From assembly GCF_026210795.1 (NCBI RefSeq), contig NC_089458.1, positions 2,000,001 to 2,064,000 on the forward strand: DNA of 64,000 nt, read 5' to 3'. The notes under the pieces were generated by a model that had not been told where the DNA came from, made no database searches, and saw only the letters and a list, made by a program, of their open reading frames with translations. Below are positions 1 through 41,735 of the stretch, in pieces; position 1 is the first letter of the stretch; each line of letters begins with the position of its first letter. This DNA comes from Rhizophagus irregularis (lineage: Eukaryota > Glomeromycota > Glomeromycetes > Glomerales > Glomeraceae). A program made the position numbers and the translations under genes.

Positions 1-2396
1 CCAATTGTTGATTTCAGATTTTTGCTAAAAAAAAGTACTTTTTATTTCTCTTGTGCTTATTTTATAATCAACTATTAATCTATTATTATATTCATCTAAA
101 TCTAATAGGTACGCATTAAGTCGAGAATTTAGAAATACTTTAGGTTAATTTCAAATTGCTTAGAGTGTTTTTTTTTCAACATTAATAAAGTGCATCACAA
201 TCTGAACATGTGTGAGTACCAAATGCGAAAACATGAATTATGTACTATCATGCCATCACGACTCATATTCCCTTTAAGATATTGGTTTAACTTCCTTGAT
301 CTAATAATTGATTTCAAAAAGAAAAATTATTATAAATCAATATTTACATAAATATTTAAAATTTTGCCAATTATACCGATTATACACATTCATCATCATC
401 TATCTCTTGTTCTTATGCATTGTAAAATGAAGTCATATCATAGTTCCCCCTATTCTCAACACATTTACATTCAATTTTGAATATATATATATATATATCA
501 AGACTTATTGGAAAAAACACAAATTGTTATTTTTTCATAAACAAGTATTAATGAATGATTTTTGTTAATGAACTGCACGTACCTAACCGATTTTCTTCAG
601 GATAACACAAAAATTCAGGAGAATTTAGAAGACCAGTATCTTTTACAAGGGTAATTATAAAGTTAACATTTGTTTAAAACTGTATGGGTTTTCATTCTTA
701 AACAAGTAAAGTATGTGTAGAGTTTGTCGCGCAAGAAAAAATGGTTCAAAATGACCAACATGTAAAAAAATAACCTGGCCTGCAGAAATAAGTGTCGTAA
801 GCCGTAACGTGTTATTTACTTTTGCACATACGTTTGACTTTTGTACGTAAATAAAACGCGAGATAAAAGGCCGATTTATATATGACGATCACTACTTTAT
901 ATACGGATCGCGAATAATTCTTTCCGATTAAAAAGTGTGAAAAAACTATTAACAAAAAGATTTCTGATAAGCATATGTTAATAAGTTGATTATTCCAAAA
1001 TCAGAATATGTTAAATCTTTTAAGAAACAAATTTTCTAATACGATTCTGGATGAAATTTTAATTGTAGAAAATTATTATTAGGTGCAAAAACGAGCCCAA
1101 GATAACTAAATTTTAAACGATCAAAGGAGAATTAGGAAGAATTACTCATCTTCGAATTCGTAAATGATATACTGGAGAAAATATTAATTAAAAATTAACA
1201 TGTTAATAAAATAACATATCGTTAGATTTCTGTAAAATACTGATTTTGCGATATATTTGATTTGTGATATATTTGAACAATTTTATCGATTCATATTTCA
1301 ATTACGTACTTTTTTTCTTGAACAAATAATAATTATCTTGGAGAGAAATTAATCAACAATCCTTTATTATAATTAAATCGCGAATTATTCCAAAATGGTA
1401 TTTTTATATAGTTTCGAAGTTAATTCAACATCCTAATACATACGAAATTAAACCAATCAACTTAGATATTAAGTTGGAATAATAATTTTTCGTGTAATCC
1501 TATATCAAATATCATTCGATAAGGAAACATATTGAAATATTTGAAATATAATTATTATGGTCAATATTGTCGTTTCACAACAAATTTCGAATATATACAT
1601 ATGCATATTATAAAATCAACGGGGTAAAAAAAAAAATGATAAATTTTAATATCGAGAATATTACTCGATCAATAATACTAAATATATCAAAGTCGTAATA
1701 ATTTGTGGGTCTTTAATAGATTTAAGAAAAGAAACATGCAACATTGACGTGTGGTAACAGCTAATTATTCTGAATTTACAACTAATATTGAACTCTGGTC
1801 GTGACTTTTCCTTCAAATAGTTCAGTAAGGATTGTCAGAGTATTATTAATCATTTCGAATCAATAATTTATTACAATTCTATGGTTTCGAAAAATTTTAC
1901 AATTTGAATAGGAACGGGAAATATCATCCATTGGGAAAGTACAAAATTTTGATGAAAAGTTCCTAAAAGAAAGCGTTAAAAATAAATTTTTAATGGAAGA
2001 ACTACTATTGAGCAACTCAAGAAATCTTTATTTTCTTTATACGAAAATTTTTTATTGCAGATGAAACGTTCGATCATCTATGTGAAAGAAATAATATAAT
2101 TAATATGACGGAGATGATGATAAAATTATTTGACACATTTGATCCGATCTTTGGAATGATTATAAGAAATTGATTTGATTAAAGACACTTATTCATATGA
2201 TCTATAAAATGATCGGTGGTGTGTTATTTTTAGAATAGGTGGGATCAAACTTAGTTTTACTTTTCCACTAGTTATAATAGTACTATTATTTACGATATTA
2301 AATTTGACTTTTATATTTCTGGTTAATAAAAAAAAAATCTAACAAGTAAAAAATTGGGATGTATAATAAAAAAATATAAAATCATCTTATTATTAC
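1..2396. other. AT-rich spacer, no gene recognised
   Basis: I see no open frame with protein-like composition on either strand, no splice-consistent exon chain and no structured RNA. The stretch has short (TA)n tracts, for example near 481-500, and many poly-A/poly-T runs. A long noncoding RNA or a fast-evolving small gene cannot be excluded by eye. Confidence 0.5.
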
Positions 2397-2477
2397 GACA
2401 ACAGCAGGATTTGAACCTGCGCGGGCAGAGCCCATCAGATTTCGAGTCTGACGCCTTAACCACTCGGCCATGTTGTC
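2397..2477 (-). tRNA. tRNA-Ser (anticodon CGA)
   Basis: Read on the minus strand, the 81-nt sequence starts GACAACA and ends TGTTGTC, giving a perfect 7-bp acceptor stem. It contains the D-arm, an anticodon stem-loop CAGACTCGAAATCTG with anticodon CGA (reads UCG serine codons), a long class II variable arm (TGGGCTCTGCCCG region) and a T-loop GGTTCAAATCC. The long variable arm is what is expected for tRNA-Ser. No intron is evident and the CCA end is not encoded, as usual for nuclear eukaryotic genes. A T-rich run for Pol III termination lies beyond the 3' end. Confidence 0.95.
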
Positions 2478-5400
2478 CAAGATACTATGTGCTACATTCT
2501 CGAAAATTTAAATAAAGAATAATGAAACATTTAATAAATAAATAAATATATTCTTTTTAAATAAATGTAAAACAATATATAATCATTTAGTTACAAATAT
2601 ATACACCTTTAACCTTTCATTCAAAGAAAACTTTTCGGTTCTTATTTTTTTAAAAAATTTCAATTAAGCTTATTATGAAAACATAATATCCAAAATGGAA
2701 TTCATTGAGTTCTTTTAATATTACTAAATTTGAACATCATTGAAGATTACATCATCAATCGAAAAAGAATTACTAAAGAATTATTCGTGGAAATAATAAT
2801 TCGGTAAAAGGGATTAATTGAATGAAACCAAATAAGTAATAATTAATGAATGTATAGAAAGAATAGAAGATTCTATTGTTTATAGAGTTATAAATGGAAT
2901 GTTTCATTTGTTCTTCAAAAGAACGAAAGTGGGCAACAGTAGAGAAGTAAATAGAGGATAATAATGATGAAAGTGGTTAAAATGGATAATGCGGGTAAAG
3001 TAATTAAAAGTGGTTAAACGTGGTATAGTTTCTTTTTATTTTCAAAGATTACCCGTTGATAATCCTGATCCACTCGAATAGTAGAGGATAAACCTATTGT
3101 TTGTACGCTAAAATGTAGGGATTGTTGTGTGAAAAATTGTATGAAAGAATGTGAAAATGCGTGCGATATGTGTGTTGCTCACGTATTTGAAGTACAGCAT
3201 TCAATTGAGTTACCTTTGATTTGATTAAGAAAAATTTGGTCGATTTTTCTAAATTTGTAACACTAGAAAGAGCGGAAAAACAATCCGATTAATAAAAGAC
3301 AACAGAATGAAGACACGTAAGGGAAATTATGAAAGAGAGAGAGAGAAAAAAAAAATCCAACAAATAAAAAATAATTTAAAATAATTTAAATGTATCGCGA
3401 TTATATTTTACCCATTTACAAAAGTTTGCAGCCAATCGGTCATCAATTGCCAACTGAAACCAAACGAAAAAGCAGATCCTGCGAATCGGGGATTATCCAG
3501 AATTGTAAGAAGATCTTAACTAATTATTGAAATAACTTTTTTTTTCAACTTAAAAAGTCAAATGAATAGATTCGAAGAACCTTTGACAATTTGGGACATT
3601 GATTTTTTTTTACAGGTTCCTTTGTTACAGGTAACTTCTGAAAATACTAAAATTTACTTTATTTCTTTTATTAGTAAAATTTATAATGGATAGATCACAA
3701 GAATTTTTCATTCATTTATTACTCCATTCATTCATTCATTCATTCATTCAATTATTTTATTTATTTTTGTTTTTTTTTTAAAAAAAAAAAAAAATAATTA
3801 AAATAATTGAAAAACTAGAAATAGTTCATTATTATACATTATTATATATTTAGACATTATTAAAAAAAAAGTAGACATTATTAAAAACTAGACATTATTA
3901 AAAAGACATTATGAAAAAAAATTAGTCATTATATTCATTATTATAATTCATACATAGTTTGTATAACATTTAAATAACCAATCTAAGTTTTGTACGTGTT
4001 TTGTTAAATATTCGCGCGCTTTTTTCTTTTTAAGTTAATTGACATTAACGAAAATAGTAATATGATAGATTTTTCTTTTTAATCACCGAATATTTAATAA
4101 TAATCACCTTTTTTTTTTAATAGCGAAAAGTTTTAGATCAAAAAGAAAATTTGGGCTAAAAAAAAAGAGATCAAAATATTTTGATCTTTTGATCAAAATT
4201 CATCTGCGGGTTAATCACAAGTTGCGCCAAAAACTTTATTTATGTCATTATAATTAATATAAAATTTTGGGTCGCCTGATCCGTTAAAAGTTGAACGCAC
4301 GTGTATAACTTGGAAGAAAATATTTGTTTATGTGATATTTAACAAAACGAAAATAGCTTACAAGAAGAAGTAAATATCGAAAGAAATATAAGTAAAAAAT
4401 TGCATGAATGAATTATTAAATAAACTAAACCTTTCGAAGATGAATTCATGTATTCGGGAGAATGCCGGGTGATTAATTAGTAATAATTGTTCATTGGATG
4501 ATTAAGTTGATGAATGATGGATGAGTCATATAAAATACCTATCATATAACGGATTTATACCTATTTTTTTTTTCTATTTTTCCTTTAAATAGATTTCTTA
4601 ATAATGGATTGGAATTTCTCTTTTCGTTTTATTATAACAAATAAAATTTGCAGTTACATTTTTCTTTGTTTCACTAGTCAAATTCCGAGGACAGGGCGTG
4701 AATCCTTTTGTAATATTTTTTTAGTTAAGCGTGTTTTTTTTTATTATTACATTTATTTTTTTTATTTTATTTTTATTTTTATTTTTATTTTTATTTTTTT
4801 TTTGTTGTGGTCCGTCATTCCATAATTTGCGTATTTGGCATGCTTTTTTGTTTGTTATTTGGTATAAACAATGAGGAAAGGGAATTATAATTAATTATAT
4901 ATGTAATAAAATTTATAAATGATAAAAATGTATACTGTAATGTATGCATGCCACAAACTTTGACACGACAGAATTTATTATAAAATTATGTTTCGTAAAA
5001 GAAAAAAAATAAAAAAATAAAAATAAAAAATAAAATAAATAAAAAAAAAATATTTGAAATTTCTATTCGAAAAAAAAATGGATCAAAGAAAATAAGAAAA
5101 AAGAAAAAGAAAAAAAAAAAATTTTTTTTTTTGTTTATATAAAATTTTTAATTGAACATTTTTTTATTGGAAGCTTTTTTTATGCCGAATTTGAAATCAA
5201 ATCAGATGACCTTTTCATTCGGGCAAATATTTATCCTGATTACACAAAATAGAAATATGATTTTTTCAATTTCAAGTAACTTATCAAAGAAGAAGGAAAA
5301 AAAAAAAAAAAAAGTCATTATATATATGTACCGTATATAATAATATTTATTTATTTATTATTTATTACAAAAAACATTCATTATATCATATCGCATGTCA

Positions 5401-17705: not shown

Positions 17706-18540
17706 TATGAAGTCGAAATTAAAGCCCAAAAGTAGAAATATTTCGACTTAGGAAGGTTAAAAGTCGAAATTAAAGTCGAAATGATCAAAATTACATCATA
17801 GTCATGTGATTTTTATAATTATAATTTAATATAAAATTTTAAACGTGAATAACTCTGTCAATATTGATGCTACAGATATAAAATACATATCATTGGAATC
17901 CTCTCGATAAGCTAAATCCAACCGTATAAAGATCATAAAAATCGAATCACTAGATGCGGAGTTCGTTAACTTTGAATTTTAATATTATTGTTTACTATAA
18001 AATCATATGACTACAGTGCATACAACTTAGTCCCAGCAATTAAATTTGATGAAATTTAAATCACTACTATTCATTCAAAAAAAAAAAGATAAATATAAAG
18101 TATAAACATACAATGATAAACCAGATTAAATTTAATAAAACTATGTTTTTAAATTTCCTATAAAGTATTTTTTAATAAAGTAGTAGCAATTCAAAGTTGG
18201 AATATTTTACTATTAAATTAATTATTTGGCCATTTTATTCTAACCAGAATTACATGTAAATCTGGCCAAAATTACTTTTGTTTAATTATTAATTATATAA
18301 ATTTAGCTAGAATTAAGAATTATAACTTAAATTAAATAAATTTGACCAATAAAATTACAGGATTAAGTATTATATAATGTAAAAAATTTGGCCGCTTAAA
18401 AATTTTTTTGTTGGGACTAGGTTGTATGCACTGTATGACGTAATTTTGACCATTTCAACTTTTGAAGGAGTTCAAGTCGAAATCATTTCGACTATTTTGA
18501 CCATTTCAGAGGTCAAAATTAACCAATTTCATATAGTGTT
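17706..18540. repeat. fold-back repeat (GTCGAAAT arms) split by a mariner-type MITE
   Basis: The left arm carries several GTCGAAAT units and ends CAAAATTACATCATAGTCAT. The right arm, read in reverse, carries the same units and the same sequence, starting at 18434 just after the inserted 420-bp MITE. The core at about 17880-17950 contains a diverged copy of the ATTGGATTC...CTCTCGA module seen in the fold-back elements at 20, 27 and 32 kb. The outer ends were not defined precisely and no target duplication was identified. Confidence 0.55.
18014..18433. mobile_element. Tc1/mariner-type MITE (420 bp) with long TIRs
   Basis: The left end is CAGTGCATACAACTTAGT and the right end in reverse complement is CAGTGCATACAACCTAGT, continuing as CCCA on both sides. 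A TA dinucleotide flanks both ends (18012-18013 and 18434-18435). No open frame is present. It is inserted in the right arm of the GTCGAAAT fold-back repeat; removing it with one TA restores the arm symmetry, which supports these boundaries. Confidence 0.85.
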
Positions 18541-20062
18541 AATGATCTTTTCCTTAAGTCTTATTTTTTTATTCTTTTAATATGTTCTCATTCTACTACT
18601 ACTTTATAGTATAATTGCCAAATAATACTGTAAAATTCATTAAGAAATGTTTCTAAGAAAAGGGTTGCTATAGTTAATGCTATTCTTTTTAATTTAACAA
18701 TAATCCTGAATTTTCTATATTTACTTTTTAGAAAGTAGCTTCTTAACATTAAGTGTATATAAGAAATAGAAAATCAAAATTAATACCAGTTGTATAGGTA
18801 AAAAAATTTTTATTTTATAAAAGTAATTGATATATATTTTTCCGACTTATTTTTTTATAATTATATACTTTATTAAAATACAATTTACTTTACCTTAAAA
18901 AAATATTAATTATTAAGAATTCATCACTTAATACACTTAATAGTAATAATAATTTACATACTATATATATATAAATAGTTATAAAAATATGACAAAATAT
19001 TATAAAATATGTTGCTAAAAATAAAGCGTTACAAAAATGTAATACAAAATTAAAAGAAATAAGTAGGAGCTAAATTATAATAACATAAATAAAAGAAAGG
19101 AAAATACATGAATTAAATCAGTACTATAAATTTATTTAGTTTTATACAATAAATAGACTTTTGCAGTACTTTTGCTATACTTTAGATAATTAGCAATTAA
19201 TAATGATAATTAAAAGTTGACTCAATAAATAGAACAATATATTAAAATTATAAAACAATTTAATAATTTTTTAATTCAGGTCAATTAATCCTAATCTATT
19301 TATTAATAATCATATTAAATGTAAACTTATCAAAAATGCAAAAATCAAATTAATTATAGAAGTACTAAAAAAACAGTTAGTAAAATAAAATAAAATAAAG
19401 AAATCTCTGATTATAATCCTCACTTTTATAATAATTGTAATAATACTTTTCATAAAATTTATATAACTTTGGTATAAATAAATTAATAAAATACATTTGA
19501 CTATATGTGAAATTTTAAATCTTTTTTATTTATAATACTATTTTATATTAATAACTTTTTATTTTTTAAGATTTTTTATGATAAATATTTATTACTTCCA
19601 TTAATTATATGATAGTAATAAATAGCTATTTATTACTACTATATTAATATAGTAATATTGTGATAAATAACTATTTATTACTATATAGTATTAATAAATA
19701 TTAAAATTGTTATTTTATTTATTTGATAATTATAATAATTTTTTACTATTAATAAAGATTTTTTTAATTTTTTTTTTAGATATTAAGGGAATTTACAGAT
19801 ATTATATAATTATTAAAGAAGAAGAGAAGTGCAATCAAAATCTTACATTATATTTAATAAAATTATATGATTTATAAATATTATAATTTGATTAATTATT
19901 AAATTTAATAAGAGAAAAAGAAGAAATAAGTTTATTTTAAACTAAATATTATATAATACAGTTAACCCTTATTATAAAGAAATGAGTATTTGAGTTAATC
20001 AAGCCTTCATTATAAAAAAATCTGGTAACATTATAGCAGGATTTCAGATATTTCTTATATAT
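18541..20062. other. very AT-rich spacer, no gene recognised
   Basis: No protein-like frame is seen. Near 19957 a sequence TACAGTTAACCCTTATTATA resembles the ends of the CAGTT-type MITE at 16.4 kb and the end at about 32.4 kb, and is probably a decayed transposon end without an obvious local partner. Confidence 0.4.
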
Positions 20063-20739
20063 ATCAGAAAATTTGTTTAGGCGTAATTTAGTGTAATATT
20101 TCAGAGGTGGTGTAAAATTTTGAAATATTACACTAAAAACGTAATATTACAAAAGTTTACGTTCTTAAATTTGAATAATTATAGTAATTTAAGAATATCT
20201 CGCTATCTACTGATCCAATCAAGACGATCTATAGCTTATTGGAATCAGCTCATCAAGACGAATCGAATGGTAGTAAAATCATATCTTTATATTTGATAGA
20301 TGACTTTCTATTAATTCAAAACTTTATTGCATACTATAGAGCGTTCTATCAACTGTAGAAATGCGAATTTACTACCATTCGATTCGTCTTGATGAGCTGA
20401 TTCTAATGAGCTATAGATCGTCTTGATTGAATTAGTAGATAGCGAGATATTCTTAAATTACTATAATTATTCAAATTTAAGAGCGTAAACTTTGTAAGGG
20501 CAGTGACATTTATTACATAATATTTTAGGGGGTGGGAGGGTATTTAAAGGTTATATAACATATAAGTGTAATGTAAGATTTTTCATATTACATGGGGGTG
20601 GGGGAGTATGGACTTATAGTAAATGGATATTACGTAATGAATGTCACTGCCCTAATATTACATTTTTAGTGTAATATTTTGAAATTTTACACCACCTCCG
20701 AAATATTACACTAAATTATGCTTAAACAAATTTCCTGAT
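20063..20739. mobile_element. fold-back element carrying one inverted pair of the GTCGAATGG module
   Basis: The two arms are near-perfect reverse complements from ATCAGAAAATTTGTTTAG on the left to its complement ending at 20739 on the right, including GTGTAATATTTC and a GGTGGTGTAAAATTTT segment. The centre holds two inverted copies of a module with GACGAATCGAATGGTAGT and, further out, TATCTCGCTATCTACT. A 155-bp MITE sits in the right arm. No coding frame is present. The ends differ from those of the hAT-like fold-backs at 27.5 and 32.5 kb although the core module is shared. I could not define a target-site duplication. Confidence 0.75.
20498..20652. mobile_element. PIF/Harbinger-like MITE (155 bp), TAA target duplication
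   Basis: The termini are GGGCAGTGACATTTATTAC and the reverse complement GGGCAGTGACATTCATTAC. The trinucleotide TAA is found directly on both sides (20495-20497 and 20653-20655), which matches the 3-bp TWA duplications of PIF/Harbinger elements. Comparison with the uninterrupted left arm of the host fold-back element gives the empty site, confirming a nested insertion. Confidence 0.85.
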
Positions 20740-21025
20740 GTAAGTCATAACTGACTTTTTGTCAAAAAAGGCCCAATTTGCTCTTTTTTTATTTTCAGTT
20801 TTTTGTGAATATTTTGACATTTAGTGATTCGGTTCATGCAGATTTTTTTTATTTTATAAAGCTTGATAAGAGTTATAAAACAAAAAAAAAATTACATAAA
20901 TTGGACTACTAGATGCCAAGATAATCACAAAAAATCCATTTTTTTTTTCTGAAATTTAGGGTTAATTTGTGAAAAGTCAACCTCTGAGTTATATATGTAA
21001 TGTCTGGGATCCTACAGGATCCCGA
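20740..21025. repeat. dispersed repeat R1, copy 1
   Basis: This stretch aligns with 28686-28925 and, at its left edge, with about 26660-26690 (AACTGACTTTTTG followed by CAAAAAAG). Shared landmarks are TTCATGCAGA, a T-rich run, CTACTAGATGCCAAGATAATC and GAGTTATATATGTAAT. It ends near the palindrome GGGATCCTACAGGATCCC. No coding capacity is recognised. Confidence 0.65.
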
Positions 21026-21235
21026 AAAATACATAGTCACATGTAAGTTTGCTTAACCATATTAGTAAAATTTCCAAAAGTCATAAAATTTTATTTGCAT
21101 AGATTTTGAGATTTTTTAAAAGGTTATATATATAGTTTGCGTAATAACAATCATTTTTATATATGTCATATATTTTAATTTGCGTAATCAACGGTATTTT
21201 TTAATAAAAAATATATATATATATAATTCCAGCAG

Positions 21236-21400
21236 TCTTATACTAATTAGCAGCATAACGCCTTGGAATTTCAGCAATTTTCTACTAATTAGCAGCATAA
21301 CGCCTTGGAATTCTAACGATTTTCTACTAATTAGCAGCATAACACCTTGGAATTCTAGCGATTTTCTACTAATTAGCAGCATAACGCCTTGGAATTCCTT
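21236..21400. repeat. 42-bp tandem repeat, about four copies
   Basis: The unit contains TACTAATTAGCAGCATAACG followed by CCTTGGAATTC and repeats every 42 bp with few changes. Because 42 is a multiple of three, both strands give repeated peptides (for example SSITPWNSSDFL and GVMLLISRKSLEFQ) that look like open frames. Neither frame has a convincing gene context. Confidence 0.85.
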
Positions 21401-22195
21401 AATAAGCAGCATTATACATAATATAATACATAAATTTTTGAAAATACATAATTGACGGCTAATCTGATTGATAATAAATAATTTTGTTTTCAATTTTTTG
21501 ACTTTTAACAGACCGTTTTATTGAAAGAAAAAAATAAAATAATTTTTTTTGGTCTGTAACAAACCGTTTTATTCAATAAAAATTTTTTTTTGGCTTTTAC
21601 TGTTATATTTTTTTAACAATAGGCCATTTTATTAAAAAAAAATATTTGGTTTAGAATGTTATTAATATTCCTTTTTATTATTTTTCTTTAAAAGTAACTT
21701 CTTAAATCTAAAATTTATTATTTTAGATACCAATATCTTGGAAAAATATGAGTTAAGAGAAAAGTATAGTCAATTTTTTTGGGAATATTACCATACTAAT
21801 ATTCCTTTTACTTTTTTCTTAGGAACTTGGAATTCAGACTAGAACTCCAATGCTCATTGTAAGTAAAGAATTTTTTAGCTTTATTTTGTTTATTTTATTA
21901 ACATTTCTATTGTTTTTTCTATTAGAAATGATTTTTAGATTAAAACTAAACTGAAATTTTTAGTAAGTTGAGAATAGGGTAGAATTTTTTTTGTTTTATA
22001 TGTGAAAGTAGTATTACCGTATAATCCTGAAATTAAGCACCCCCCGAAATTAAGCACCCCACATTATATATATATACTAAAAATAAGCATCCCCAAAAAA
22101 TTGAAGTTTTTTATTATTTAAACATTATAAATGTTATAATTACAAATCGATTAACTTTATTAACTTTATTAAATGATACAAAATTATTACTTTAT

Positions 22196-23798
22196 CTATT
22201 CATTTATACTAATGCCTGAATCATCACAGCTTATGTCATCCTCCAAATTGTCATCACTAACATCGTGTTCCAAATTATCGTCCTCCAGATCATCATTACT
22301 AATATCAATAATTTCATTATCAAAATCCTCTACTTCGTCCAAAGCATTTGAGATACCACAAGTTTTAAAAGAATCAATGATGATCTCATCAGAAATTCCA
22401 TCCCAAGAACATTTCACCCATGCGCACACATCACTGAATTTGGCACGTCGAAGGTTACCTTTATTTGTTTGTCCAGCACCACCAGCAGCCATCCACAGTA
22501 TATATACTGCCCAAATTATTTTGGGATGCCATAATTATAATTTGGGATGTCATAATTCATTCGGTTTATATATAATTTACTATGTAAAGTGCCAAAATAA
22601 TTTGGGATGCCATAATTGAATTTGGGATTTTACTTATAATTATGGCAGTCCAAAATAATTTGGGTGGCATGTATAATCCACAGGTGCCATTCCTTACGTA
22701 AGTTTGCTTTAAATGGTTTATTTATCGCAACATCAAGCGGCTGACATAAACTTGTTAAGCTACACGGAATAACGCCTAAATCAAATCCATAATCACGGAA
22801 CTTCTCTTTTACTGATTTTTCTAAGTGTTCTCGAAAAGAATCATAAACCATTAACTTGGAGCTCTGGCTCCAGTTCTCTTGTTAATTTTGTCACCTAGAT
22901 AATCAATATACCGGTTCATCAATTCGCTATCCATCCAACCTTTATCTTGAAACCATACTACTACTCCAGGAGGTATTTTTTCACCTTTTGATAATCGCTT
23001 ACCCTTAAAGATACAAATCGGAGGAAGCTTGGTTCCATCTGTAAATTGGAATCATGAATTTTTTGTAAAATTTAAAAGTTTCTTATCATAAAATTGAAAA
23101 AAAAAAGATACTATCCGCAGCACATGTCAAAACTACTGTAAATCGGTTTTTGTCATTGCCAGTACTGCGAATCTGAACAGTTTTTTCCCCTTTTTGATCA
23201 ATAGTAAAATTACCCACCATATTGAACCACACTGGGGGTTTGTCCATATTGAAAATATTGCATAAGTCAAAAGATTTTCTGGTTCTCAAGTTATTAATAA
23301 ATTGATGAAATTTAGCCAAAGTTTCTTCTGTTTGACGTGGTAGCTTCTGGGAAATCTTTGTGCGTCGTCTCCAGGATAGCTTATATCTTTTCATGAAGGA
23401 GGATATCCACTGACATGAAGTTTTAAATTCTTTTGCTGAACCACCATATAAAGTTATCATTTCACGCTCCTTCAGGATATTTTGCATTTTAATTCGTAGG
23501 ATTGTATAAGTAACAGCCAATCCTTGCTTTCTTTTGTTCAATAAGCCAAGTATACAGCTTTTCTTCAGCCTCAGGATAAAAGGCTTTTTGGCCTGAGCCA
23601 ATTCGTTTACTGTTTTGGTTAAGTTCAGAATCCCAGCCTTTCGCTTGCCGTAACCCAACGTCCTACCATATTGGCGTTAAGATCAAAGTGTCTTGCCGCT
23701 TTATTTCATCCGTGTAGCTTAGCGTAAGTGATAACCTGTTTCTTCTGATAAACAGAATATGAGAAACGCTTTTGCTTATTGCGCAAAGCCTTCGGCAT
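22196..23798 (-). pseudogene. pogo-like transposase, broken by a stop, frameshifts and a MITE
   Basis: The minus-strand reading starts at 23798 with MPKALRNKQKR and an N-terminal helix-turn-helix region, meets a TGA soon after (LHG* near 23710), and shifts frame around 23640-23530 (FYPEAEEKLYTWLIEQ lies in another frame from its neighbours). It continues with a CENP-B-type HTH (SCQWISSFMKRYKLSWRRRT). The DDE domain is spread over 23300-22690: first acidic site in NMDKPPVWFNM, WFQDKGWMDSELMNRYIDYL, then YDSFREHLE and LCQPLDVAINKPFK. The acidic C-terminus (GNLRRAKFSDVCAWVK to the stop at 22196) follows the MITE at 22499-22675. A further disruption lies near 23090, where the frame after TCAADS runs into a poly-A tract. 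No active product is expected. Confidence 0.85.
22499..22675. mobile_element. 177-bp MITE (family M1, copy 1) in the pogo transposase, 8-bp TSD
   Basis: ATCCACAG occurs directly on both sides (22491-22498 and 22676-22683). The termini read TATATATACTGCCCAAATTA and, in reverse complement, TATACATGCCACCCAAATTA, followed in both by TTTTGG. Internally, motifs AAATTATTTTGG and CCATAATT are repeated in both orientations. An 8-bp duplication suggests hAT-type mobilisation (inference). The family recurs at 26037-26456 and, degraded, at about 34005-34345. Confidence 0.85.
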
Positions 23799-27471: not shown

Positions 27472-27479
27472 GAATTTAC

Positions 27480-28678
27480 TAAAGCTCTGAACGGTTCAGA
27501 CTAAACCGGGGAACTGATCTGAAACCGGCTCAAAATTCGGTTCAGTTCGGTTCGGGTATTAGAACCGAAAAACTGGCGGTTCAGTTCGGTTTAATCTGAT
27601 TTTTTATAAAAATGCGAAAAATCGAATAGCCGGCCATCTAGTGATCGTACAAAGTCGAGCCATATATCATTGGATTCCTCTCGACGAGACGCGTCGAATG
27701 GTGGTAAGACCATGTCTCTAGCATCGATAAATCACACGTTAACCCACGCTAAATGATTTATAAATAATTGGAATTAGCAAACTATCTATCAGTGCTAGAG
27801 ATATGATCTTAGCACCATTCGACGCGTCTCAGTGAGACGAATCCAATGAATATAAATTCGTTCGTGTACGACCACTGGATAGCGAATAATATCAAGTTTC
27901 GCATTTTTTTAAAAATTTTGAGCGTTAAAAATTAAAAATTCCGATACATGAATTTATTCGTCGTCCAATGGTCGTACAAATATGAATTAGGACTCATTGC
28001 ATTCGTCTCGATGAGACGAGTCGAATGGTGGTAAGATCACGTCTCTAGCATTGATAGATAGCTTGCTAATGCCAATTTTTTATAAATTATTTAGCATGAA
28101 TTAACTTACGATCTATTAATGCTAGAGACATGATCTCACCACCATTCGACTCATCTCATCGAGACGAATCCAATGAGTCCTAATTCATATTTGTACAACC
28201 ATTGGACGACGAATAAATTCATGTATCGGAATTTTTAATTTTTAATGCTCGAAAATTTTAAAAAAATGCGAAACTTGATATTATTCGCTATCTAGTGGTC
28301 GTACATGAACGAATTTATATTCATTGGATTCGTCTCACTGAGACGCGTCGAATGGTGCTAAGATCATGTCTCTAGCACCGATAGATAGCTTGCTAATTCC
28401 AATTATTGATAAATCATTTAGCGTGGGTTAACGTGTGGTCTATCGATGCTAGAGATATGATCTTACCACCATTCGACGCGTCTCGTCGAGACGAATCCAA
28501 TGATATATGGCTCGACTTTATACGATCACTAGATGGCCGGCTATTCGATTTTTCGCATTTTTATAAAAATCAGATTAAACCGAACCGAACCACCAGTTTT
28601 TCGGTTCGGTTCTTACGGATTTCGGCTCTAATCTGAACCGTCTATAATCCGGATCAAACCGACCCGTTCAGAGCTTTA
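27480..28678. mobile_element. hAT-like fold-back element, copy A (1199 bp), 8-bp TSD, palindrome of palindromes
   Basis: GAATTTAC is duplicated exactly at 27472-27479 and 28679-28686. The termini are TAAAGCTCTGAAC and its complement. The whole element is one near-palindrome centred about 28079. The outer 120 bp at each end are packed with CGGTTC/GAACCG motifs, like the subterminal transposase-binding sites of hAT elements (inference). Inside are three hairpins (about 27660-27860, 27985-28180, 28315-28510), each made of two inverted copies of a module with TCGTCTCGAYGAGACG, GTCGAATGGTGGTAAGATCA and GTCTCTAGCA: six modules in all. Small open frames here are by-products of the repeat. There is no transposase, so it must depend on one elsewhere. 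Confidence 0.9.
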
Positions 28679-28685
28679 GAATTTA

Positions 28686-28925
28686 CTTTTTTTTATTTTC
28701 CATTTTTTGTAATTATCTCGGTATCCAGTGATCTGATTCATGCAGAATTTTTTTATTTTGTAGAGCTCGATGAAAGCTACAAAACAAAAAAAAGTTAGTA
28801 CAAATTAAACCATTAAATGCCAAGATAATCGCAAAAAACTGATTTTTTTTTGTGAAATTTAGCTCAATTTGCGAAAAAGTTGCCACTGAGTTGTATATGT
28901 AATATCTGAAATTCTGATTAGGTTG
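28686..28925. repeat. dispersed repeat R1, copy 2 (right part)
   Basis: This aligns with 20790-21010 through TTCATGCAGA, ATGCCAAGATAATC and GAGTTGTATATGTAATATCTG. Its left part is displaced to about 26640-26690 by the inverted-repeat element and the hAT-like fold-back. A 71-codon minus-strand frame here (28713-28928) is a by-product of the repeat. Confidence 0.6.
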
Positions 28926-28929
28926 CATT

Positions 28930-29515
28930 TTCCAAAAAAAGATTTATTTTATTACAATTAAAAATATCCTTAATATCATAATTTTTTAAAATTTCGTAAA
29001 TATTTTCATGCATCATTTTAAGATCTCGAAATGACATACTTATTTCTTTTCCATAAATGTTGTATTGCCTTAAACTGTGACGCTTTTTAAAATTATTTAT
29101 TCATTCATATGATCACTTAAATTTATCTTTTTTATATAAAAAAGTGAATTTTAAAGTCTTATTAGAAAGAATACTATTACTAATAATAAGATCAACTTGA
29201 AGTACCTTTTCTATCCAAAAGGTTAATACTTCTTTAATAATAGAAAAAGATATTTTTTTCTTATATCACAAACTAGCTAAATGTGAATTAAAGTCTATAG
29301 TAATCTATTGATCTTTTTCCTTAAAATATTACTAATCATTTTTTCATTAATATCATATTTTTTGGTTAAGTCTTTTTATTTTAAAGGTATTAATATTTTC
29401 TTTAAACAAATTTTTTTCTTTTGTACAGTGATAAGAGTCTTTCATTTTTTAGGAATTTCATTTTGTTTTTGAAAAACTTCATTAAGTCATTTTTTGAAAT
29501 TTACTTTTAGCATAA
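28930..29515 (-). pseudogene. Tigger/pogo-like transposase remnant (N-terminal HTH part)
   Basis: Read on the minus strand from about 29515, a chain of short frames resembles the CENP-B-type DNA-binding region of Tigger transposases: KKKICLKKI, KDLTKKYDINEKMISNIL, then WIEKVLQVDLIISNSILSNK, TFLYKKDKFK, INNFKKRHSLRQYNIYGKE and EILKNYDIKDIFNC. It is interrupted by several stops. One TGA (29101-29103) sits where the family normally has Trp before INNFKKRH. It is cut off at the boundary with repeat R1, before the DDE domain. No TIR was found for this copy. Confidence 0.7.
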
Positions 29516-30100
29516 TGTAGTTAACTAATTTATACAGTTATACTAAAAATACAAAAGAACAAAGATAAAGAAATAAATCACAAAATATAAACTATTTATA
29601 CTAATCATTTATAATGTAAAATTATTTGAAAAGAAATTTTATGTAAGATAATAATTTATTGTCTTTTATATATACAGTCAGAACTTAATATAATAATTCG
29701 TGATAAACCGATTTTGGCTTATAACAAACTTTTTTTTCAAACTAAAACCACCTATAATTAATTTTATTACTATATAACAATTTTATTATAAATTTTACCA
29801 TATTATATATAACGAAGTCTAATTGTAAACCACTAATATGTATTTGTTCATGATTAGCTGATACTGATTTTTTTCTCAATTTACCAATTATCATTATAAA
29901 AAAAAGATTTTTACTTTATTTAATGATTATCAATATAAAAATAAAATATTTTTTCTATATAACAGATTATTCTTAATATAGTAATATAACAAGTATTAAT
30001 TGATTAAATTATAAATATTTATTACTGTAGATCAAAAAAAATAACATTTCTTTCAATCATACTTCACTATGTTTTTTGAAAAAAAAGTATTACATTATCT

Positions 30101-31834
30101 ATAGGACAAAAGAAAGAGCTTTGTTTTAAAAAAGCTGATAATTTATTCATATCAAATACCAAACTTGCTAAATATTACAATATCAAGCCTAATATGGTTA
30201 GTGATATTTTAAAAAGAAAATCTGAATATTTATCTATCTCCAGTCCTGAACAGAATAGAAAAAGGTTTTGAAAGCCAATGTATAAAGAAATAAATGAGGC
30301 AGTTAGTACACTAGTCAAAAACTAATATATCGGATAGCAGATATGTATCAGATATCAGATATGTACCTGATATGTGTAGTATTAATGCTGAAAATCGGGT
30401 ACCCGATATGTATAAGATATGTGTAAATATATATATTGTCTACATATTATTTACATATCATATACATATCAGTACCCAATATATATATGATATATATATT
30501 TACACATATCTTATACATATCGGGTACCCAATTTTCAGCATTAATACTACACATATCAGATACATATTTGATACATATATATCTGCTACCCGATATATTA
30601 GTTTTTGACCAGTGGTATTTAGATGTCTTAATTTTTATTTATAAATCGAACGTTACATGGAGATATATTACAACAAAAGGCCAAATTGTTTGTAAATAAA
30701 TTTGGCATTACAGGATTTAATGCATCTGCAAATTGATTAACTAATTTTAAAAAAAGAAATAATCTTCAATTATATATTAAATCAGATGAGGCTGCTAATG
30801 CATCTGATATTAATAAACTTAATGAATACCAGGCAACAATTGCTGAAAAATTATCTGAATATTGTGATGAAACAGGTAATCTAAACCAATTAATCTTAAA
30901 AAAAAAACTTTTTTATATTAAAGCTTTTATTATTTTTTATCCAGCTCTTTTTTGGTAATTAGAATCTTCAAAAATACTTGCATAAGGTTTTGTAGTTGGA
31001 ATTAAAAAATCTAAAAATAGAGTTATTATTTTACTAACATGCAATGCTAAAAGTGAAGATAAACTTAAGCCATTATTTATACATAAGTATAAAAATCCTT
31101 GACTTCTTTGTGGTATATCCGTCAAAGATAGTGTAGATTATTATTGGAATAAGACTGCATGAATGCAACAGTCAATTTGGTTAGACTATTTAAAAAATTT
31201 AAATAGTTTAATATGCGTTCAGATAAAAAACATTCTTTTATTAATAAATAACACTCCTACTCATGGAAAAGAAGATGAAATTTCTTCTTTTAGTAATATT
31301 GAATTATATTATTATTTACCACCAAACACCAACGTACATCTACAACCCTTAGACACTAAAATTATTAACTCATTTAAAGCCAAATATTAAAAACTCTTGG
31401 TAGAAAACAGAGTTGAAGCATATGATCTTACACAAGAGCTAAATAACCTAGTAGTACTAGTTATAATTTGTAATGCAATTGATTTTGTTGTAAAAGTGTG
31501 AAATCAAGTTGAATCAACTATAATTAAAAACTGCTGGATGAAAACTGGAATTCTACCATCTAAAGACGATGAATCAGATGAGAAAGATAATGGTGAGGAA
31601 GATGCTATTATTATTAAGTTGATTGACATTAGATTATATAAATGCTGATAAAATTAACAGCGATAATTGCTTTTTATTAGATGATGAAATTGTTGAAACA
31701 GTAAGACCAAACTCAAGTGCAGATGATTTGCAAGATGAAGAAGAAATTATTCCTATTATTTTCTTGACAGAAGTACTAATTAATGTAGAAAACTTGATTA
31801 ATTTACATAATTTCCCATTAGAAAATTTTAAGTA
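30101..31834 (+). pseudogene. Tigger-like transposase, inactivated
   Basis: Fragments in family order: GQKKELCFKKADNLFISNTK and YYNIKPNMVSDILKRKSEYL (CENP-B HTH), stop, nested MITE, then ILQQKAKLFVNKFGITGFNA, NFKKRNNLQ, KLSEYCDETG (first catalytic Asp kept), VGIKKSKNRVIILLTCNA, KLKPLFIHKYKNP, WNKTA*MQQSIWLDYLKNLN, LLINNTPTH (family LLIDN, so the second catalytic Asp is Asn here), YYLPPNTNVHLQPLDTKIIN (third Asp kept), NCWMKTGILPSKDDE, and an acidic C-terminus ending at 31834. At least six in-frame stops interrupt it. Three are TGA where the family has Trp (30734, 31160, 31499). The protein cannot be made as one chain or catalyse transposition. Confidence 0.85.
30309..30614. mobile_element. 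CACTA-like palindromic MITE (306 bp), GTA target duplication
   Basis: The ends are CACTAGTCAAAAACTAATAT and, in reverse complement, CACTGGTCAAAAACTAATAT, with GTA directly outside on both sides (30306-30308 and 30615-30617). The CACTA/CACTG start plus a 3-bp duplication matches the CACTA (EnSpm) superfamily. Almost the whole element is one hairpin: arms share GATATGTATCAGATAT, GGGTACCCGATATG and TATAAGATATGTGTAAATAT. Open frames through it are artefacts. It interrupts the Tigger transposase, so it arrived later. Confidence 0.85.
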
Positions 31835-32454
31835 ACCAATGAAGAACTGAGAATTTTAAAAGGTATTAGGTGTAAGGTGTTGAGATATAAATCAGAATCT
31901 TCAATTCAATTAAGTATGGATGAATTTATCAATTTTAATTAGAAATTTTTTTTTTTTTGAAAATAACTTACAATAATGGAACTTTATGGAAATATTTTAT
32001 AAGTGAAATGTAGGAATAATAAATAATATAATACAAAATAAACAAATAAAATTTTTTTTAATAATTTTTCTGTATAGTAAATTTTTACATTATTTACTAT
32101 TTAAATCGGTATATCAAAAAAAGATCATTTATTCAAATCTTCATTATAACGAACTAAAACTATCAAACTGGAGGGTTCGTTATATTAAGTTCTGACTGTA
32201 GTAAAAATTTATATTACAAAAATTTTGCTATATTAAAAATAAAGTTTGTTATAAAAAAAAATTCAGTATAAAAGGAATTATTTATATATGTGAATTTATA
32301 TATTTTTCTTTATTAAACGTTATACTATGTTTAGTTAGTAGAATTCAGTATAACAATTTTTTTTTCATATAATAAAATCTGTATTATATTAAAGATTCGT
32401 TATATTGTAAAATTTATTATATCAAAATTCACTATAAAAAGAGTTAACTATAGT

Positions 32455-33317
32455 TAAAGTTTCCGCGAATCAGTGGTCCGGATTATAGATGGTTCGGATT
32501 AGAGCCAAAATCCGTAAGAACCGAACTGAAAAACTGGCAGTTCGGTTCAGTTTAATACGATTTTTATAAAAATGCGAAAAATCAAATAGCCGGCCATCTA
32601 CAAAGTCGAGCCATATATCATTCGGATTCATTCTGACAAGACGCGCCGAATGGGCGGTAAGATCACGTTCTAGCATCGATGATACTGCATAACGCCAATT
32701 TTTTATAAACCATTTAGCATGAATTAACTTACAATCTATTGATGCTAGAGACATGATCTCACCACCATTCGACTCATCTCATTAAGACGAATCCAATGAG
32801 TCTTATTTCATATTTGTATGACTATTGGACGATGAATAAATTCATGTATCAGAATTTTTAATTTTTAACGCTCAAAAATTTTAAAAAAATGCGAAACTTG
32901 ATATTATTCGCCATCTAGTGGTCATACACGAACGAATTCATATTCATTGGATTCGTCTCACTGACGCGTCGAATGAATGGCGCCAAGATCACGTCTCTAG
33001 CACCAATAGATAGCTTACTAATTCCAATTATTTATAAATCATTTATGCGTAACGTTAATGTGCGATCTATTGATGCTAGAAATATGATCTTACCGCCATT
33101 CGACGTGTCTTGTCGAGATGAATCCAATGATATATGGCTCGACTTTGTACGATCACTAGATGTCCGACTATTCGATTTTTCACATTTTTATAAAAAATCA
33201 GATTAAACTGAACCAAACTGCCAGTTTTTCGGTTCTAATACCTGAACCAAACTGAACCAAATTTTGAGCCGGTTTCGGATTGGTTCTCCGGTTTAGCCCG
33301 AACTGTTCAGAGCTTTA
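32455..33317. mobile_element. hAT-like fold-back element, copy B (863 bp), 8-bp TSD
   Basis: ACTATAGT is duplicated at 32447-32454 and 33318-33325. The termini TAAAG...CTTTA and the GAACCG-rich subterminal zones match copy A at 27.5 kb in inverted orientation. It has four modules (two hairpins) where copy A has six. The missing stretch of about 336 bp equals the spacing between successive direct modules in copy A, so loss by recombination between two modules is likely. It is more diverged than copy A. It is inserted in the end of a CAGTT-type MITE remnant (AGAGTTAACTATAG). Confidence 0.88.
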
Positions 33318-33325
33318 ACTATAGT

Positions 33326-39781: not shown

Positions 39782-41735
39782 TTTATGAAAATTCTGTTCA
39801 AAATTTAAATTTTTAATAAACTAATATATATATATATATATATAGAGAAATAAAGTCAGTAATAAATAATTAATAAGTAGGGATAAATAATAATCTGCCA
39901 TATATTAGATAAACCAAAACTTTTGCTAAATGAACAATTCCAAAAAAGCTAAAGTTTGAAATCCTAATATAAGTATGTCTTAAATGTTTCTGGTTATTTT
40001 CAAAGTAGATATTTTGATATTTAAAGTCCATTTTATCATCTTGCGGAGCAGGTAAAAATATACTTATCACTCTTTTTTTTACTGCATTACAAATAACTAG
40101 CTGCATTACCTATAAAATTGTTTTTCATTAAAAAGCTAAAACTTTAATTATAAAATGATTTATTATTTATAATATTAAACAAAGTATTGCATAGAATAGG
40201 ATCTTACAACCTTATTGCTCCTTTAATTAAGTTTACTAAGTTTCCTAAGTTATAATTAGCCAATTAAAATTGGTCATTTAAATTTGTAATATTAATAAGT
40301 TAGTTAATAGATTGGTAAGTTATATAATTAATATTGAAATTAATTGAACTATAAATTTGAAATAATTTGTATATATAAATTGCAAATAAAATTTATAAAA
40401 TGCAAAATCATAAATAACTTTTAATCTAATAATTAGATATAAAATTTATATCATTCAAAAAGATGAATCAAATGGTTGTATTGTTGTAAAATCATCTCTT
40501 TATAATTAATGTTAATAAAGTTGTAACTTAAAAAGATTTAACAAATATTAATTTTAGAAATTGATTTAGTAATTAAATTTTAATAAAATTTATATTATTA
40601 GATTTATTTTAATAAGACAAATTAAATAGTAGTAAAATCATTTCTTTATAATTAATGTTAATGGAATAATTATAGCTTAAAAAATATTTAATAATTATTA
40701 ACTTTAAAATGATCTAATATTAAAATTTATTATTAAATTTAATTTATTAAAACAAATTGAATAATGGTAAAATTATTTTTCTATAGTTAATATTGATAGA
40801 GTTAAAATTTTTAATTATAGTTTATATTAATTTTGACTAGAATTGCAATTTATACATGTATTATTAAAATGTAATTATAAGATATTTTTTATATAATTAT
40901 ATTTCTTTATAGTTATTTAATATAAACTATTCTAGAGTTGATTGTATTTGTATATAGCTAAACTGTTATATTAAATTATTAATATATAATGGATTTTAGT
41001 AGATTGTAATGCTAGTTAATTATTTAATTTTTAATTTACATATGCTAAATAAAATTCAGTATAAGCTACTGAACCTAAAAATTGTAGTTTATTTTTGCAA
41101 GAAAATTTTCCTAAACTTCAAGTTAATTTGGCTAACATTATAATACTAATCTGAATTATAATATTTTCATATTTATTACTATAAAAGAAACAGATCGGTA
41201 TACATTATATCATGAAATAATATAAAAATTGGTATATTAGGATTTTTTAATAATTGTAAAATGGAAGAATAAAAACATCATTATAGGTATGTTATATAGA
41301 AGTTTTAACTATAAAGTTGCTTAAATAAAAAAAAATGATAATGATGATATTGAATAGTAATATAGAATTTTTTTTTATTCTAGTTGGAATTAAGGTGAAT
41401 ATTACTATAATTACCCGAAAAAGCAGATAAATAAACTTGACTAAATAACAACCATTAAATGTATATATATCCGACATTCATTATCCCGACACTTATTATC
41501 CTTTTTAAAAAAGAAAATTGCTAAAACTCACCAGTACTTAGAAAAGCAGATCATGTGTAACAATGTGATCATAATTTATTATTAGATAGTGAAAAGTAGG
41601 TTGGCGATCGGTTGTGTAACGGGAGAGTGCCACAGCAATTTCTATCCCAGTGTTACTGAATTAAAGTTAATTTTAGGAAGCAAACCATAACTAGATAATA
41701 TATTAACAAACCATTAAAAGTTCCTACTTATAAAT
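39782..41735. other. AT-rich spacer containing a decayed module array
   Basis: Nothing coding is visible; the 78- and 61-codon minus-strand frames are AT-driven. A (TA)n run follows the GTPase stop codon. The stretch 40455-40805 is a separate repeat (listed). The final 150 bp are the presumed promoter region of the bromodomain gene. Confidence 0.5.
40455..40805 (+). repeat. degenerate direct array (3 units, ~135-155 bp period) related to the fold-back module
   Basis: Units start near 40462 (GATGAATCAAATGG), 40616 (GACAAATTAAATAG) and 40751 (AACAAATTGAATAATGG). Each continues with GTAAAATCAT(C/T)TCTTTATA or a close variant and then TTAATGTTAATR. This follows the order of the module in the 20-kb fold-back (GACGAATCGAATGGTAGT, AAAATCATATCTTTATAT, TTGATAGATGAC) after loss of G and C. 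Orientation is direct, not inverted. Confidence 0.5.

Follow-up and report, generated by a model that had tools for sequence, protein, structure and literature searches.

The window analysed here is a 64-kb stretch of the Rhizophagus irregularis genome (NC_089458.1, positions 2,000,001 to 2,064,000; contig C30 in our searches). It contains two insertions, copies A and B, whose interiors consist of an array of a 102-bp unit, U, in alternating inverted order. Both copies belong to F1, a large R. irregularis family of non-autonomous, hAT-like fold-backs. The two copies are listed below in window coordinates, with their terminal inverted repeats (TIRs), target-site duplications (TSDs) and the U units (m1 to m6) located by profile search.

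27472..27479, no strand: TSD GAATTTAC, left of copy A
27480..28678, + strand: copy A, a 1199-bp six-module fold-back of family F1, subfamily A1, with TIR TAAAGCTCTGAAC at both ends
27635..27732, + strand: U, m1 of A (profile seed, E 8e-23)
27783..27881, - strand: U, m2 of A (profile, E 2e-23)
27964..28060, + strand: U, m3 of A (profile, E 7e-20)
28110..28206, - strand: U, m4 of A (profile, E 1.5e-20)
28289..28387, + strand: U, m5 of A (profile, E 4e-24)
28439..28535, - strand: U, m6 of A (profile, E 8e-26)
28679..28686, no strand: TSD GAATTTAC, right of copy A
32447..32454, no strand: TSD ACTATAGT, left of copy B
32455..33317, + strand: copy B, an 863-bp four-module F1 element with an altered left end (TAAAGTTTCCGCG)
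32599..32680, + strand: U, m1 of B (weak, E 1e-6)
32734..32829, - strand: U, m2 of B (profile match)
32912..33012, + strand: U, m3 of B (profile match)
33064..33162, - strand: U, m4 of B (profile match)
33318..33325, no strand: TSD ACTATAGT, right of copy B

The initial annotation of this DNA had described perfect 8-bp duplications around A and B, and these are present (GAATTTAC twice, ACTATAGT twice). The ends that it regarded as shared are so at three of four positions, which read TAAAGCTCTGAAC, but not at the left of B, which reads TAAAGTTTCCGCG. Copy A is, as had been proposed, a single palindrome with inner hairpins: its arms (27601-28070 and 28100-28569) are 470 nt each and 94% complementary, thus accounting for approximately the whole element, and folding of the single DNA strand yields one long hairpin. 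Six modules were recovered in A and four, one of them weak, in B, but the module is wider than first drawn, the earlier 66-nt repeat corresponding to about columns 34–99 of U.

Genome-wide searches used an assembly of 146.7 Mb in 32 contigs. Copy A returned 864 first-look candidates, 40 of which were scored; the 39 besides A itself are 91–96% identical to it over nearly their full length. The exact end TAAAGCTCTGAAC has 76+79 matches, compared to 0+1 for a control. From these 155 end positions 100 were listed and 30 loci read, and 15 of the 30 are paired elements with an 8-bp TSD (13 perfect, two with one mismatch), so that the duplication length of the hAT superfamily is found in these loci as well as in A and B. 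Twelve of the paired elements measure 1185–1215 bp, and the other three 872, 1335 and 32 bp. The remaining 15 loci comprise two single ends (L022, L025), one locus without a matching TSD (L026), one interrupted element that has a TSD (L033), three loci with copies of a 398-bp two-module form that has F1 ends and no TSD (L029 and L030, which are one element, and L034, whose right end has diverged), and eight (L014, L016, L017, L024, L028, L031, L036, L037) that share one unrelated, putatively coding repeat containing the F1 end 13-mer. Because of this repeat, true ends are fewer than the count of exact matches. A four-module F1 form, interrupted by another hAT, was found at L070. The 32-bp case is a palindrome of just two F1 ends (L009, 1501-1532) with the 8-bp duplication AGTATATG, and a 27-bp end-to-end pair of F1 ends lies at C10:1619248-1619274; both may be fold-back deletion remnants or minimal elements.

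A hAT transposase gene with the ends of A and B, which had been suggested as a target for searches, was not found among the 30 end loci read of 155 and the 150 of 835 hAT domain candidates scored; a module-bearing hAT with other ends was found instead, as described below. Three candidate partners were rejected. The 3953-bp element at L070 (TSD TAGGAAAT on both sides) was set aside because its transposase sits in a second, nested hAT with ends TAGAGGTGCAGCC (bases 1096-4062; own duplication matching at 6 of 8 positions), inserted into the four-module fold-back. The single end L022/L069 has one genome copy only, with no hAT frame beside it by eye. The third, the sole near pair seen by eye between the 100 listed ends and the 150 scored domains, consists of an F1 copy on C18 and a hAT domain about 380 bp outside it, and was taken as coincidence.

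A module common to elements with different ends

Ten representatives, drawn from seven groups, can be aligned along all 102 bp of U with no internal gap, and 26 columns are invariant; one-base gaps occur in some single copies. The 20-bp core of U has 899+902 genome matches at ≤2 mismatches, compared to 1+0 for the reversed control, far more than chance would give, and a degenerate 20-mer has 307+309 exact matches, compared to 0+0. Thus, the module is not limited to the two insertions, a limitation that the initial annotation had named as an argument against a specific function, and occurs in several repeat groups with different ends. The window itself contains 16 copies of U at E <1e-3. Besides the six in A and the four in B, they are carried by the following features.

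17860..17956, - strand: F6, a single U between inverted arms (first profile E 8e-12, non-seed)
20062..20740, + strand: F2 fold-back, 679 bp with an insert, TIR of the CATCAGGAAATTTG family, 2-bp TSD (TA/TA)
20204..20302, + strand: U in F2 (profile seed, E 4e-23)
20344..20441, - strand: U in F2 (profile, E 5e-20)
40424..40793, + strand: F3, three decayed direct-tandem U units at 40424-40511 (E 1e-4), 40564-40657 (E 6.5e-11) and 40710-40793 (E 5e-4), outside the model

The window model of U contains the 17860 copy and the group consensuses of A and F2, which therefore match it partly by construction, although the 17860 copy was first detected by a profile built without it. The F3 copies were missed by the first profile (E 1e-3) and picked up only by the second.

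U is carried by no fewer than four groups of DNA elements, each with defined ends that differ from those of the others, and also by repeats whose ends are undefined (F6, F3 and the tandem forms L108, L113 and L114). The four defined groups are F1, F2 with its 2-bp TSD, the tandem-array group F5 with an 8-bp TSD, and a hAT that encodes a transposase. A permissive alignment between groups ran past U, and strict runs with U masked were used instead. Under these conditions only the ends that A has in common with the 398-bp form and a 25-nt stretch between F4 (described below) and F5 (0.008) reached E <0.01; lenient scoring added an 88-nt stretch between F2 and F5 (67%, E 1e-4).

F2 is a numerous group, with 992 first-look candidates, 40 of which were scored; the 39 others are 95–97% identical to the window copy. 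Its 2-bp TSD varies in sequence and matches in all 16 copies read, the window copy included, and copy L073 has fold-back arms of 252 nt that are 94% complementary. Most other copies read are 522 bp long, and the window copy reaches 679 bp through a 155-bp insert at 20498-20652 (GGGCAGTGACATT...AATGTCACTGCCC, TAA on both sides), a putative miniature inverted-repeat transposable element (MITE) of PIF/Harbinger type. In F6, the alignment score of the arms is 74, compared to a maximum of 31 in 200 shuffles. Its right arm is interrupted at 18014-18433 by a 420-bp insert (CAGTGCATACAACTTAGTCCCA...TGGGACTAGGTTGTATGCACTG, flanked by TA), presumably of Tc1/mariner type. F5 has three U units, mainly as direct repeats, and is thus no fold-back. 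Its ends begin TATAGTTGT, and L092, the sole copy with both ends, has the 8-bp duplication GTAGTGGC on both sides. A further 12 loci, hand-picked as unlike A from 100 listed places and hence a non-random sample, comprise two F2, four F5 (one partial), three tandem relatives of F5, one F1-like and one F6-like locus, and one partial U.

The transposase-encoding hAT was recognized from a 651-aa frame on C3 with Dimer_Tnp_hAT (1.4e-19) and zf-BED (2e-7) domains. The C3 copy has only its left end within the stretch examined. In all four copies on C8, C9, C31 and C1, the 19-bp end TAAGGATGGTCATCGGTCC is present without mismatch at either side, and the flanking 8-bp TSDs are identical (GTAGAAAC, CCCGTAGG, ATCGGTAT and ACAAACAC, respectively). 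This module-bearing element thus combines a transposase of hAT type (dimerization domain and BED finger), TIRs and an 8-bp TSD, as expected of the hAT superfamily. At the hAT domain, C8 and C9 have an open frame of 651 aa, C31 one of 327 aa and C1 one of 579 aa, so that the C8 and C9 copies are complete in their ends and in the length of this frame. Four U units lie 3′ of the frame in the C3, C8, C9 and C31 copies, the fourth being cut by the stretch edge in the last three; in C1, the U block was inferred solely from three matches to the pattern in the corresponding position. At L091, a 731-bp palindrome (3004-3734), the F4 block, contains four U units and lies 3′ of a transposase frame of 651 aa; it is bounded by inverted ends TAAGTGGG / CAAGTGGG (also given as CAGAGTTGC / TAGAGTTGC) and by near-identical 8-bp flanks (7 of 8 matching). 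With ends and flanks of its own, the block was perhaps once independent, and may be an old nested fold-back since absorbed into the hAT. An identity of these carriers as Helitrons or Helentrons was rejected, as it is contradicted by the TIRs and the 8-bp or 2-bp TSDs of F1, F2 and the transposase-encoding hAT.

Other repeats were observed in the window. A 164-nt repeat occurs twice, just to the right of the F2 element (20784-20947) and of copy A (28688-28851), with 78% likeness between the two, and includes a stretch like the left edge of U (weak profile matches). A short palindrome at 30353-30573 has 96-nt arms, 93% complementary, and no U match in the profile search. A 42-bp tandem repeat lies within a listed open frame at 21225-21434, and a 196-aa frame on the minus strand (23086-23676) was judged by eye to be a putative fragment of a pogo/Tc1-type transposase.

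Divergence of U and concerted change of the arms

The consensus of 20 unflipped A1 copies was compared with that of three copies of a second F1 subfamily, A2 (L019, L021, L027). Divergence is 8% in the TIR and 12% in the 65-bp core of U, but 22% in the outer spacer, 32% in the spacer, 33% in the subterminal region and 35% in the loop; none of 10,000 permutations reached the slower divergence of the module. Change is concerted between the two fold-back arms: of 118 arm positions at which A1 and A2 differ, 92 have changed on both arms with pairing kept, in U and elsewhere alike, and partner modules are 94–99% identical within a subfamily. The arms have thus been homogenized, through conversion or renewed snap-back copying. 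The interior sometimes flips, being inverted relative to the ends in four of 24 A1 copies, each by a difference of 1–2 identity points. Since homogenized arms are not independent, the rate test was repeated on one arm at a time, and the core again differs by 12% on each, compared to 29% and 33% for the rest of the interior (P 3e-5 and 3e-6). Over the full 102 bp of U the figures are 19% and 31%. Overall, the core has diverged between F1 subfamilies about a third to somewhat over half as fast as the remainder of the element. The columns that stay the same are those kept elsewhere: where at least five of six other groups agree, 11% of the A1–A2 cells differ, compared to 26% in the other U columns (P 2e-6 for both arms;.003 and.0004 for single arms). 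The slow U was seen again between A and all three A2 copies, and between A and its relatives L070 (P.03) and L063 (P.005).

Within A1, diversity is much the same in the module (.064), loop (.062), spacer (.059) and outer spacer (.055), with.095 in the subterminal region and.097 in the TIR. Variants shared among A1 copies are rarer in the conserved U columns (.064) than in the other U columns (.127; P.015). Since U is slow between subfamilies but not within A1, we read the pattern as constraint during transposition only: the comparison suggests that U is constrained in the transposing lineage and free of constraint after insertion. The earlier claim that modules stay more alike than loops and spacers therefore holds between F1 subfamilies, and fails within A1, between the 398-bp copies and between F5 and its tandem relatives. 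Likewise, the equal pace of module and spacers that had been named as an argument against a specific function is absent between the F1 subfamilies and present within A1, between the 398-bp copies and in the F5 comparison.

The explanation that we prefer, while putting it at slightly short of an even chance, is that U would be a sequence-specific DNA site, kept while lineages transpose, that helps its carriers to mobilize or to be expressed. A number of observations weigh against it. The U profile seeds were chosen and trimmed by eye. Only the right two thirds of U are slow, and the left third diverges like the spacers. The clear slowdown is limited to the F1 group: it does not recur between A and L111 (P.19) or between the 398-bp copies, and in F5 versus three tandem relatives the core and the rest both stand at.308. 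Within A1, private changes are more frequent in conserved U columns than outside U (.279 versus.182 per non-CpG site), and the shared variants, which constraint would be expected to lower, are no rarer in these columns than outside U (.056). Conversion among abundant copies could mimic constraint. The inner modules m2–m5 are 75–82% alike between A1 and A2, no more than non-matching modules, so the orthology of the inner array is unsure. Two loci show U apart from the usual settings, one (L116) with a partial U and no recognizable element, and one (L095) with a single U and no inverted repeats. Finally, the trans-acting protein expected to bind U is itself a prediction.

Much of this could also be understood if U were a passive passenger, an old and abundant satellite-like repeat captured by chance, recombination or snap-back replication, with its likeness among carriers due to abundance and gene conversion. 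We regard this as a serious competitor, a little less probable than a functional site. The great abundance of U makes capture likely, the homogenized arms and flipped interiors of the A family indicate that recombination is active, the equal rates in F5 and its tandem relatives are as expected of such a passenger, and direct-tandem forms exist (F5, F3 and L108/L113/L114, at a spacing of about 140–150 bp). Non-autonomous oyster Helentrons hold satellite-like central repeats in a comparable manner (PMC7492417). A passenger should not, however, have a core that diverges in F1 at less than half the rate of the other interior when homogenization spans U and non-U sequence alike, nor should its slow columns be the very ones that other groups keep, and five copies of the transposase-encoding hAT, C1 going by pattern hits alone, have retained the U array. 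As the evidence favours a functional site only in F1, we keep the two readings close to each other.

Dyad, folding and the possible role of U

In all seven representatives compared, U is an imperfect dyad, 51–69% self-complementary at one axis and ≤39% at 16 other offsets. Covariation was not detected in the dyad, either in paired cells (65.7%, compared to 66.9% in shuffles) or in double-changed pairs (14, compared to 15.2), in a set of ten sequences that gives low power. A dyad without covariation is read more readily as two related half-sites in DNA than as a conserved stem, so that a DNA site bound by a protein seems more likely than conservation of a hairpin RNA.

The initial annotation had also raised a source of hairpin RNA for small-RNA silencing. 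In this reading, transcripts across the fold-backs would pair into long double-stranded RNA, Dicer would process it into small RNAs, and U would be kept for its structure. Some features fit: arms of up to 470 nt are 94% complementary, A folds as one hairpin, the single units of the 398-bp form and of F4 fold better than shuffles (z -3.9 and -5.3), and evolutionarily young regions of R. irregularis give abundant small RNAs, according to PMC10234402. The single-unit fold is nevertheless ordinary in six of nine representatives (z -1.9 to +1.0), covariation gave no support, and a selfish element should not be expected to favour a hairpin that silences it. The 19 Rfam matches in 19500-41500 (E up to 1) all fall under the gathering scores. 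A z of -13.8 for F5 was not counted, being an artefact of a consensus that mixes matches of both orientations. Structured RNA was accordingly rejected as an identity for U, in that Rfam, covariation and folding z-scores gave no consistent case, and the hairpin-RNA idea is the least supported of the readings and, to our minds, improbable.

If U is bound as DNA, as the preferred explanation has it, a dimeric protein would be the binder, aiding movement or expression of the carrier; U would be kept through the transposition of the lineage and then decay freely after each insertion. The initial annotation had offered either a transposase or a host protein. The carriers differ in their ends and duplication lengths, which makes the transposase of a single family less likely, and the better candidate would be a factor of the host, or else a trans-acting one that is widely shared. 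A binding site for one transposase would not by itself account for carriers with 8-bp and with 2-bp TSDs. Snap-back copying, or conversion from one arm to the other, would be the origin of the nested palindromes, and the dyad may have seeded it. A more specific version, which we consider rather unlikely, is that one dimeric fungal protein, or one widely available trans-acting factor, recognizes U to the benefit of every transposon carrying it, and that families unlike in transposase and ends have therefore converged on the core and trade it by recombination.

The narrower alternative, that U is the internal binding site of one hAT transposase lineage, and that its presence in F2 and the other non-hAT carriers is secondary and without use, draws on the 8-bp TSDs of F1, the transposase-encoding hAT, F5 (one two-ended copy) and the F4 block (7 of 8), and on Galileo, in which multiple sites for the transposase lie within long TIRs of internally repeated sequence (PMC3688188). 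This seems to us a poor prospect, since F2 is both numerous and consistent in its 2-bp TSDs, and since the family-specific repeats near the ends (GAACCG-like in F1, GGTCC-like in the transposase-encoding hAT, both by eye) are better candidates for transposase sites.

Several known systems resemble this one in part. The highly conserved central domains of short interspersed nuclear elements (SINEs) are likewise short internal modules common to otherwise unrelated mobile elements, and the V domain of SINEs has been found inside the DNA-transposon MITE MER6 (PMC6887750). In contrast, the carriers of U are DNA elements with TIRs in one fungus, and U is repeated one to six times in palindromic or tandem order. 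The oyster element Cg_HINE, a non-autonomous Helentron, also has repeated cores joined to different flanks (PMC7492417), but these are direct tandem cores, whereas U carriers have 8-bp or 2-bp TSDs and their main arrays alternate in orientation. Galileo and Foldback of Drosophila share the very long, internally repetitive inverted arms, and in Galileo multiple transposase-binding sites have been demonstrated within them (PMC3688188); however, Galileo belongs to the P-element superfamily, and U is common to elements with different ends. The hAT superfamily transposons of R. irregularis itself, families of which are mentioned in PMC11075540, are alike in 8-bp duplications and short TIRs, and the module-bearing hAT encodes BED and Dimer_Tnp_hAT domains. 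No description of U was found in the portions available of the open-licence literature, including PMC10234402, PMC11075540 and PMC8647823, supplementary repeat libraries aside; matches of published text to the letters of the module and ends were judged from the listing to be due to chance.

According to PMC11075540, approximately two thirds of R. irregularis transposable elements are unclassified. A core that is common to several DNA transposons, one of which encodes a transposase itself, gives a way into the question of how such repeats spread. If one protein does recognize U across families, the module would be the DNA-transposon counterpart of the conserved SINE core domains. The distribution described here suggests that U is either a shared docking site or a passenger of different transposons, and makes it a testable case of an old question, namely why internal domains are common to unrelated mobile elements. 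Setting constraint among transposing lineages against its absence after insertion provides a simple test that could be applied to other shared domains.

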